Shown here: positions 28,364 through 36,491 of the stretch, piece by piece
Position numbering within the stretch: the stretch's first letter is position 1
Layout of the letters: the number at the start of each line of letters is the position of its first letter
From: Psychromonas sp. psych-6C06
GTDB lineage: Bacteria; Pseudomonadota; Gammaproteobacteria; Enterobacterales; Psychromonadaceae
Assembly: GCF_002835465.1 (NCBI RefSeq)
Contig: NZ_PIZM01000019.1
Location: forward strand, 1 to 36,624
Length of the DNA stretch: 36,624 nt
Reading direction: 5' to 3'
Made by a program: the position numbers and the translations under genes
The notes under the pieces: model-generated
What the model saw: the letters and a program-made list of their open reading frames with translations, nothing else
Databases searched by the model: none
Told to the model about the DNA's origin: nothing

Positions 28364-28440
28364 TGGTGCGGGTGAAGGGATTCGAACCCCTGACCGCCTG
28401 GTTCGTAGCCAGGTACTCTATCCAGCTGAGCTACACCCGC
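28364..28440 (-). tRNA. tRNA-Arg(ACG), copy 3
   Basis: A 77-nt gene with encoded CCA, anticodon ACG (read as ICG, for CGU/CGC/CGA). The acceptor GCGGGTG pairs correctly, the T-loop is GGTTCGAATCC, and the anticodon stem is CTGGC/ACCAG-like. Last of three identical copies in the transcript. Confidence 0.97.
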
Positions 28441-28521
28441 ATAGATGCAAAATATTGAGGAACAATATTTTCAAAGCTCTAAAAACAAAAAAACTTACCT
28501 AAGTAAGCCTTTAAAAAAGAA

Positions 28522-28598
28522 TGGTGCGGGTGAAGGGATTCGAACCCCTGACCGCCTGGTTCGTAGCCAGGTACTCTATCCAGCTGAGCTACACCCGC
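28522..28598 (-). tRNA. tRNA-Arg(ACG), copy 2
   Basis: Identical in all 77 nt to the copies at 28364 and 28661. The 81-bp spacer to the next copy differs in sequence, so only the tRNA body is conserved. Confidence 0.97.
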
Positions 28599-28660
28599 CG
28601 CGATATTCTTTTATGTTTTCATTTCGATTCAAAAATCACCATTTCGTGCAAATAGAAATA

Positions 28661-28737
28661 TGGTGCGGGTGAAGGGATTCGAACCCCTGACCGCCTGGTT
28701 CGTAGCCAGGTACTCTATCCAGCTGAGCTACACCCGC
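28661..28737 (-). tRNA. tRNA-Arg(ACG), copy 1
   Basis: First tRNA-Arg after tRNA-Ser. Same 77-nt sequence as the other two copies. The order Ser then repeated Arg mirrors E. coli serV-argVYZQ. Confidence 0.97.
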
Positions 28738-28756
28738 TTTAAGAATCTATACAAAA

Positions 28757-28849
28757 TGGCGGAGAAGGAGGGATTCGAACCCTCGAACAAGCTATAAACT
28801 CGTTACTCCCTTAGCAGGGGAGCGCCTTCGGCCACTCGGCCACCTCTCC
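28757..28849 (-). tRNA. tRNA-Ser(GCT)
   Basis: A 93-nt class II tRNA with a long variable arm, anticodon GCT (serine AGC/AGU), acceptor GGAGAGG paired with CTTCTCC, discriminator G and encoded CCA. Length and layout match E. coli serV. First gene of the four-tRNA transcript. Confidence 0.97.
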
Positions 28850-35442: not shown

Positions 35443-35625
35443 CCAAATAATATTTTCCCGTTTAGTTCTTTAATTTTAAAGGGATTTATATACTGCAAAG
35501 CTTATATTAAACCGATAAAATTAAGTTATGAATTAATCGCATTAACCCAATAGTATTATTTATCTACACAGGCTATAGACTTTTCACCATTCGAGTATAG
35601 ATCAACGTTATAAGCCACTAACATC

Positions 35626-35657
35626 AACAATCACTGCAGGCTTAGTGAACAGTGATT
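35626..35657 (-). terminator. 5S-tail hairpin, copy 5 (decayed)
   Basis: AATCACTG pairs with CAGTGATT. The stem position matches the other copies, but the bases have drifted in a compensating way and the T-run is lost. Confidence 0.45.
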
Positions 35658-35774
35658 GCTCGTATTAGGTGTTTTTGCGGTGGAAAGTCTTCGCAGAGGC
35701 CCGAAGCTAGTACCACATAGATTGCGCGATATTCGCCCTACTCTCTCTTTAGCCCATCATAAGTCATCAGAATT

Positions 35775-35810
35775 AAAAAACACCAGCAAGAAACACGTAC
35801 TTGGTCTGTT
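35775..35810 (-). terminator. 5S-tail terminator, copy 4 (degenerate)
   Basis: An imperfect stem (AACA-GACCAAG with GCTGG-TGTT) followed on the minus strand by six Ts. Confidence 0.45.
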
Positions 35811-35988
35811 TAATTGGGCGTTTGGCGATGGGTGGACATTGCTCATCGCTTCGCGATATTCGCCCTACTATCACTATACGTATGGTGCACTTAAATATTA
35901 AAGTATCTCAGAAATGATTATTAATCATTTCTTTCTGTCCAATTACGGCAAGCACTTAGCTATGCTTCATTTTTAAAATCCCTAAAAC

Positions 35989-36022
35989 GAAAAAATCCCT
36001 GCTGACGTAGTCAACAGGGATT
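35989..36022 (-). terminator. 5S-tail terminator, copy 3
   Basis: AATCCCTG (35994-36001) pairs with CAGGGATT (36015-36022), with a T-run on the minus strand. Identical to the copy at 36327. Confidence 0.85.
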
Positions 36023-36137
36023 GTTCGTATTAGGCGTTTGGCGATGGAAAGGGTTCGCAGAGCTCACCCGCTCGTGAAACATCGCTGTCGCGATACTCGC
36101 CCTACTCTCTCCGTAGCTCATCATAAATCGTAGGTAA

Positions 36138-36174
36138 TAAAAAACCCCTGTCGGGAACTAACTCAACAGGGGTT
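36138..36174 (-). terminator. 5S-tail terminator, copy 2
   Basis: AACCCCTG (36143-36150) pairs with CAGGGGTT (36167-36174), then a T-run on the minus strand. Related to, but distinct from, copies 1 and 3. Confidence 0.85.
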
Positions 36175-36326
36175 TGTTATTGGGCGTTTGGCGATGGGTG
36201 GACATTGCTCATGAGCCATCGCTTCGCGATATTCGCCCTACTATCCCATGATTTGCTACTACCTACGGCAGGCTGTTCACCTTTCCCCATGTGGGAGTAG
36301 GTCTTCATTTATCAAATGCATAAAAC

Positions 36327-36360
36327 GAAAAAATCCCTGCTGACGTAGTCAACAGGGATT
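36327..36360 (-). terminator. Primary terminator of the rRNA operon
   Basis: AATCCCTG (36332-36339) pairs with CAGGGATT (36353-36360), extended by GTTGAC/GTCAGC-like inner pairs, with a T-run on the minus strand. It lies 12 bp after the 5S 3' end. Confidence 0.9.
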
Positions 36361-36371
36361 GTTCGTATTAG

Positions 36372-36491
36372 GCGTTTGGCGATGACCTACTCTCACATGG
36401 GGAGACCCCACACTACCATCGGCGCAACTGCGTTTCACTACTGAGTTCGGAATGGAATCAGGTGGGACCACAGCGCTATTGTCGCCAAACA
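36372..36491 (-). rRNA. rrf: 5S ribosomal RNA
   Basis: About 120 nt on the minus strand matching bacterial 5S rRNA: TGTTTGGCGA at the 5' end pairs with TCGCCAAACG at the 3' end, and the conserved cores GTGGTCCCACCTGA, CCGAACTCAG and GATGGTAGTGTGGGGTCTCC are present. It is the last gene of an rRNA operon whose 23S lies to the right of the window. Exact ends are estimated from the terminal helix. Confidence 0.97.

Follow-up and report, generated by a model that had tools for sequence, protein, structure and literature searches.

Probably hairpin-invaded and recombining 5S rRNA remnants form a genus-wide array behind rRNA operons of Psychromonas

Behind one rRNA operon of Psychromonas sp. psych-6C06, the end of the 5S rRNA gene recurs several times in the company of hairpins. 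The locus raises the question of what these copies are, how they came about and what, if anything, they do. The window, meaning the whole stretch of DNA that was analysed, is the 36,624-nt contig C19 of this genome (G000; 3,719,886 bases in 32 contigs), and the region studied is the downstream side of its minus-strand 5S gene (Table 1). A sequence-only reading of this DNA had described a tandem amplification of 5S fragments rather than whole 5S genes. That description is right in substance: the repeats descend from 5S without amounting to whole 5S genes, but each unit is a composite of a terminator, an arm, two hairpins (termed B and C) and the 5S tail. Elsewhere in the window, three consecutive tRNA-Arg(ACG) genes and a tRNA-Ser(GCT) gene lie on the minus strand at 28364-28849.

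Table 1. Features of the operon tail in the window. R1 is the covariance model described in the text.
Feature	Coordinates	Strand	Description
5S rRNA gene	36374..36489	-	Rfam RF00001, 98 bits; terminal gene of an rRNA operon that runs into the window across its right edge
Terminator 1	36332..36360	-	13-bp stem and T-run; -19.7 kcal/mol
Unit 1	36183..36325	-	Inverted 5S arm, hairpin B, short hairpin C variant, 5S tail; R1 match L037:1184-1326, 112 bits
5' strand of arm A, unit 1	36284..36306	-	Inverted copy of 5S 36381-36403; 23 nt, 91% complementary
Hairpin B, unit 1	36218..36230	-	ATCGC-GAA-GCGAT by sequence; B stem covaries across the family
Terminator 2	36136..36181	-	Inverted repeat; -21.5 kcal/mol
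Unit 2	36033..36142	-	Other type, without inverted 5S arm, with full hairpin C; R1 match L037:1034-1143, 89 bits, outside the training set
Hairpin C, unit 2	36051..36073	-	GAGCGG-GTGAGCTCTGCGAAC-CC; the window's only exact match to the C pattern
Terminator 3	35994..36022	-	Sequence identical to terminator 1
Unit 3	35817..35926	-	R1 match L037:818-927, 39 bits, outside the training set
Hairpin 4	35776..35816	-	Weak, terminator-like; -4.9 kcal/mol
Unit 4	35669..35788	-	Unit 2 type, decayed; R1 match L037:670-789, 23.8 bits, outside the training set
Last hairpin	35630..35668	-	Positioned like terminators 1 and 3; lacks a T-run

The 14-mer CATCGCCAAACGCC from the 5S tail is present exactly at 36384-36371, the copy of the 5S gene itself, and again at 36196-36183, 36046-36033 and 35830-35817. 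Three of the four further copies that had been claimed are thus exact, whereas the fourth, at 35682-35668, is decayed and carries an indel. When the 820-nt tail was shuffled 1000 times by mononucleotide, the 14-mer never turned up exactly; the closest match, seen once, had two mismatches. The units alternate between two types at spacings of 364-373 bp, which bears out the period of about 366 bp given earlier: units 1 and 3 have identical blocks of 29 and 34 nt in common (spacings 373 and 366), and units 2 and 4 are 74% alike across 112 nt (spacing 364). Other details of the sequence-only reading hold for part of the array. The 5S element said to persist in the copies, GAGAGTAGG, is exact in units 2 and 4, while units 1 and 3 read GATAGTAGG instead; the inserted ATCGC-GAA-GCGAT is exact in units 1 and 3, but unit 2 has a different loop (ATCGC-GACA-GCGAT) and the element is decayed in unit 4. 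Likewise, the hairpin ascribed to every copy is strong and followed by a T-run in three cases, at 36328-36364 (-19.7 kcal/mol), 36134-36184 (-21.5) and 35990-36026 (-19.7), but the fourth is weak and the last lacks the T-run. A generic terminator scan of the region was unremarkable by itself, with 2 found against 1.5 expected in shuffles; the shuffles behind the tail test above and the count of upstream hairpins below were mononucleotide and Markov, not exact dinucleotide.

One component had been overlooked, a 23-nt inverted piece of 5S in the arm of unit 1. An RNA reading through this piece would be largely complementary, over 23 nt, to the 3' part of 5S, and judging from this complementarity an antisense effect on 5S is conceivable. 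Unit 3 repeats the B, C and tail block of unit 1 nearly unchanged (7 nt shorter) with a different arm. The 5S gene is the only one in the window: 35560-36375 gave no 5S match at E values up to 1, the units do not reach the RF00001 gathering score expected of a 5S rRNA gene, and the window holds no expanded functional 5S, that is, a complete core with both ends and an inserted segment.

The same anatomy is seen in other tails. Units, usually preceded by a terminator, consist in order of a leading strand, an arm, GGGCGA, hairpin B, hairpin C and the 5S tail, and in some species the leading strand pairs with the 5S tail. The long form of the arm is made up of an inverted 5S piece (arm A), a variable tip hairpin and then CATGTGATAGTAGG; otherwise the arm is short or replaced. 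Hairpins B and C sit between the GTAGG of 5S and the 5S tail, units 1 and 3 of the window having a shorter variant of C, and the units lack the 5' part of 5S. A covariance model, R1, was built from an alignment (A1) of 34 long-arm units, including unit 1 of the window. These 34 came from 72 anchored windows after double B-C units, units without a long arm, duplicates and one pseudo-5S were set aside.

How widely is the array distributed within its own genome? G000 has nine 5S genes at eight operon ends, and all eight tails were taken. Units matching R1 are found in six of them (C5, C7, C11, C15, C16 and C19), with 15 matches in all and 4 in the tail of the window, and all 20 BLAST matches of the array within this genome fall at ends that bear 5S. 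Comparing rRNA operon tails thus upholds the earlier view that the blocks are not unrelated insertions with chance matches to 5S, an alternative rejected because the same block family occupies six of the eight tails and recurs in the genus. Tail C1 has only part of a long arm. Tail C6 (L032; G000:C6:211-551) is differently built, with a first 5S followed by a complete second 5S and a tRNA, and is without a unit; tails L068, L077 and L091 from three other genomes are arranged likewise (the tRNA anticodon is Thr by eye), again without units. E. coli rrnD carries a second 5S gene with a tRNA-Thr behind the rRNA operon. These four tails resemble it and, unlike the remnant units, hold intact genes. 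The arrays probably started from this state, an extra 5S with tRNA-Thr that, by eye, stands after a terminator. Tails C7 and C11 (L033 and L034) also contain another repeat, with ATACCAATTCCGCTAATATAGTGATCAAATATT at one end, which lies in opposite orientations and cuts into or ends the tails; similar repeats occur in tails of G006 and G022, and the element looks like a MITE.

Across the genus, BLAST with the window's array found matches, counted irrespective of their position, in 23 of 24 Psychromonas genomes and in none of 36 genomes from other families. For five genomes, every operon end from a 5S search was collected, a doubled 5S counting as one end, and R1 units were present in 34 of the resulting 45 tails (G000 6/8, G006 8/10, G010 9/10, G022 8/9, G019 3/8). 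With three tails of G009 and G011 added, there are 97 units in 48 tails, and all 97 units, 34 of which had built the model, lie in the sense orientation. Hairpins with a T-run are present within 70 nt upstream of 67 of the 97, against 2.4 in Markov shuffles. A pattern scan of contigs found only Psychromonas arctica DSM 14288, with two loci (L106 and L107). The R1 matches of L106 coincide in position with those of G003:C62, and the matches of L107 coincide with those of G003:C33 after correction for an offset of 32,000, so that G003 is taken to be this species. Counts per genome from the genome search are lower bounds, only the best candidates having been scored.

Comparisons of the tails show them to be mosaics. 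In G010, 14 combinations of terminator, arm-tip and B alleles occur among the 19 units caught of its 37, and free combination of this kind points to recombination between tails. Tails L075 (G006) and L087, L088, L089 and L093 (G022) contain longer, insert-bearing 5S cores that look like intermediates, although beyond the true 5S genes no part of them matched the 5S family at E 0.01. All told, this is a real, genus-wide and recombining array of hairpin-invaded 5S remnants.

The stems of these units are not static. On the 34 long-arm units RNAalifold recovered four elements, namely B, C, the hairpin at the arm tip and a GGCGA/TCGCC stem; 12 of the 20 pairs change on both sides. When a structure of 32 pairs was specified, 90.8% of the cells in A1 pair, and double-change cells number 124 against 49 in shuffles (none of 500 reached 124) and 4-17 when partners were slid; two other measures, pairs with a double change (107/500 shuffles) and further pair types (43/500), were unremarkable. 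In all 101 matches (A2), an alignment fitted to the model, there were 366 double-change cells against 141 shuffled and 33-67 slid. Compensating changes of pairs thus occur in the arm-tip, B and C stems. Arm A covaries little, with a double change in 1 of 12 pairs and 83.8% of its cells paired.

What account best accommodates these observations? That the array is a 5S-derived composite is nearly certain, and hairpins B and C are very probably related to a dispersed repeat discussed below. The explanation that we favour, if by a modest preference, is that the array consists of remnants of extra 5S genes, invaded by hairpins and shuffled by recombination, which act mainly as a staggered termination zone. 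Hairpin elements would have entered extra 5S copies early in the lineage, and recombination between operon tails would then have duplicated and shuffled terminator, arm and hairpin cassettes. RNA would be made from the array only if polymerase passed the first terminator, and no 5S product would be expected. The main effect may then be to stagger termination behind a very strongly transcribed operon, a proposal to which we give about even chances. Two findings sit poorly with this explanation: the covariation across families exceeds what a mere termination zone needs, and arm A itself covaries little.

The cross-family covariation bears on another reading, in which the units are not dead 5S genes but a conserved structured RNA family born from 5S, whose multi-arm fold is encoded in the read-through zone behind rRNA operons of several families of one order and has its own function. 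In the order as a whole, R1 matched 26 of 295 genomes, 22 within the genus and four outside (G037, G042, G108 and G194). Matches also occurred in 10 of 40 genomes of the genus to which G108 belongs, and genus g6, conceivably Pseudoalteromonas, has similar units. A second profile of the long arm, R2, was built on sequence without structure because RNAalifold gave no pair on its alignment (A6); it matched 30 of 394 genomes, comprising 16 of the 24 in Psychromonas, seven in f6, four in f15, one in f20 and two in f25. The units lie behind 5S in the loci inspected from f6, f15 and f20, three other families of the order. A 5S gene was present in 11 of 14 loci in one check (L167 and L168 being one region) and in 5 of 6 in another; no 5S above the gathering score was seen in L160, in L165 or in the single contig end represented by both L166 and L184. 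The presence of this layout in several families implies that it either predates the genus or has passed from family to family.

Several features of these units fit a fold maintained by selection, with read-through RNA cut into cloverleaf-like, 5S-derived small RNAs or retained as structured 3' external spacers. The 16 distinct units from outside Psychromonas, in an alignment fitted to the model, have 63 double-change cells against 20.6 shuffled and 6-17 slid, which adds to the compensating changes within the genus. Hairpin C in A1 has a variable stem and a loop that changes little. Nor is the long arm simply recopied from 5S, since 13 of the 22 long arms in A6, drawn from four families, read GATAG- and none reads GAGAG- as 5S does. 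A closing strand that fits its own 5S tail better than every foreign tail was found for 4 of 4 units caught in G006 and 4 of 7 in G010, but the own tail was no better in G000 (0/4), G009 (0/2) or G108, G037 and G042 (0/1 each); this test caught 22 units of the 117 rows in A2 and A4, leaving out two rows of the duplicate region L168. As far as sequence comparison goes, the absence of own-tail preference in G000 speaks mildly against 5S-like end processing of the units there, the window's included. Also unfavourable to a functional RNA are the copy number, which ranges from 0 to 7 units per tail with many decayed, and the covariation of B-C copies dispersed outside rRNA operons, for which a role in the tails is not required. 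We therefore consider a conserved RNA family unlikely, and processed small RNAs or selected spacers similarly doubtful. If such a family did exist, it might bind a 5S-associated protein or nuclease, or tune rRNA-operon termination.

The dispersed copies suggest a different view of the hairpins, namely that a REP-like element, B-C, whose single-strand hairpins a RAYT transposase recognises, moved into 5S remnants, and that the covariation reflects this recognition. The C pattern, GAGCGGNNNAGCTCTGCGNNNCC, occurs in 16 of the 24 Psychromonas genomes (none for the reversed control), and no genome has more than 24 exact copies of it. Where these copies lie differs greatly between genomes. Every exact C hairpin in G006 (13/13), G010 (18/18) and G000 (2/2) lies behind 5S, so that no dispersed B-C copies were found in G000, whereas all of those in G019 (24/24), G022 (8/8) and G011 (7/7) are at least 15 kb from every listed 5S; in G014 and G008 no 5S was found in the loci taken around the copies. 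An alignment (A3) of 27 of the 32 distinct dispersed copies, without five near contig ends (L126, L128, L134), has 24 double-change cells against 5.7 in shuffles, and the copies are thus short covarying hairpins, as REPs are. The selecting pattern itself fixed the loop of C and most of its two outer pairs, which therefore prove nothing in this respect. Covariation so far from rRNA operons means that covariation alone is no proof of RNA function in the tails. By eye, the B-C pair in L118 (G019) and L121 (G014) is nested in another palindromic repeat; this repeat, GGGGCGCATGC...TTTAGCCTGC and its inverse, is itself dispersed and only sometimes has B-C nested within it. Integron attC sites were dropped by eye as the nature of the dispersed copies.

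The genes that might move such elements are present in much of the genus. Matches to the Y1 transposase family occur in 19 of 24 genomes, and four small RAYT-like genes (in G011, G014, G016 and G005) lie 67-358 bp from an exact C hairpin. The 16 genomes that have the C pattern contain 53 Y1_Tnp matches, of which these are four; six further RAYT-like genes (in G022, G018 twice, G020 and G008 twice) lie about 4.6-10.6 kb from the nearest copy, and the gene neighbourhoods compared left out some of similar size, such as G021:C158 and G015:C7. The proteins exceed the Pfam Y1_Tnp cut-off, and their best NCBIfam match is REP_Tyr_transpos (NF047646), at 51-62 bits for six small proteins, below the curated cut-off of 80. 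G000 itself encodes two Y1 transposases, both of a larger class; they flank a gene that by eye resembles a chemotaxis receptor (G000:C1:611417-614531), and the locus contains no B-C copy. REP elements of E. coli have GTAG at their 5' foot; none was found at the foot of the dispersed copies in A3, and the GTAG of the rRNA tails belongs to 5S. The B-C repeat is thus like REP elements in being a short dispersed hairpin next to an IS200-like Y1 transposase gene in four genomes, and unlike them in its few copies, its nesting in 5S remnants, the missing foot and the sub-threshold proteins. G019, which has the most dispersed copies, 24, shows no Y1_Tnp match at all. Because of this genome we hold the odds that a RAYT-like enzyme moved the dispersed repeat lower, at about one in two; as an explanation of the array itself, mobility is rather improbable, with all exact C hairpins of G006 and G010 behind 5S.

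The array could also be explained by neutral decay of duplicated 5S pseudogenes, with the covariation produced by quasi-palindrome correction and by exchange of hairpin cassettes between operons. The free combination of cassettes, the mosaic tails and the weak covariation of arm A all fit such decay, and there is published precedent. Stepanov & Fox 2021 (PMC7812874) described 5S-like sequences behind the normal 5S in Pseudoalteromonadaceae and Peptococcaceae, with missing ends and large insertions. According to the part of that report available, several copies occur in some cases, with a putative terminator before each, and the sequences are likely untranscribed and may be pseudogenes. As far as this description allows, the Psychromonas units belong to the same kind of 5S remnants. 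They stand at the distal ends of rRNA operons, after a normal 5S, and they lack the 5' part of 5S and carry an insert between GTAGG and the tail; they too come in several copies preceded by terminators, although these are strong before units 1-3 and weak before unit 4 in the window and accompany 67 of the 97 units overall, not each. The likeness is one of description, and neither covariation nor a dispersed repeat appears in the available part of the published account. Two observations weigh against decay alone and make it a decidedly improbable explanation: a similar arrangement has been kept downstream of 5S in other families, and unpaired positions survive in arm A of many units, although correction of palindromes should have made that stem perfect.

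Of the remaining candidates, a known Rfam family is rejected, since the units have no match above gathering score (weak NsiR1 and sR10 matches fall below it). A phage or plasmid origin finds no support: the array matches none of 50,697 phage records and none of 72,556 plasmid records, and the related G108 tail has no plasmid match.

Repetition of this kind has a counterpart among tRNA operons. The E. coli tyrT tail repeats duplicate the end of tRNA-Tyr, and there, as in Psychromonas, the 3' end of a stable RNA gene is repeated behind its own operon; the tyrT repeats derive from a tRNA and the Psychromonas units from 5S, and no shared sequence is claimed. The available part of PMC2405808 contains nothing on the operon-tail repeats described here, Psychromonas is absent from the available text of PMC7812874, and the titles and abstract openings retrieved on Psychromonas 5S and rRNA operons and on palindromic or intergenic repeats mention no such arrays. 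New here, to that extent, are the genus-wide arrays, their covariation and the dispersed B-C copies of some Psychromonas genomes, four of them with a copy beside a REP-transposase-like gene.

Returning to the reading of the array as hairpin-invaded 5S remnants, what had been a published side remark on 5S pseudogenes becomes a testable family, with its layout present in several families of one order and with covarying stems. The finding also links hairpins inside the remnants of rRNA genes with a dispersed repeat, situated in some genomes beside a REP-type transposase gene, and this repeat is a concrete candidate for the source of the segments inserted in 5S genes.
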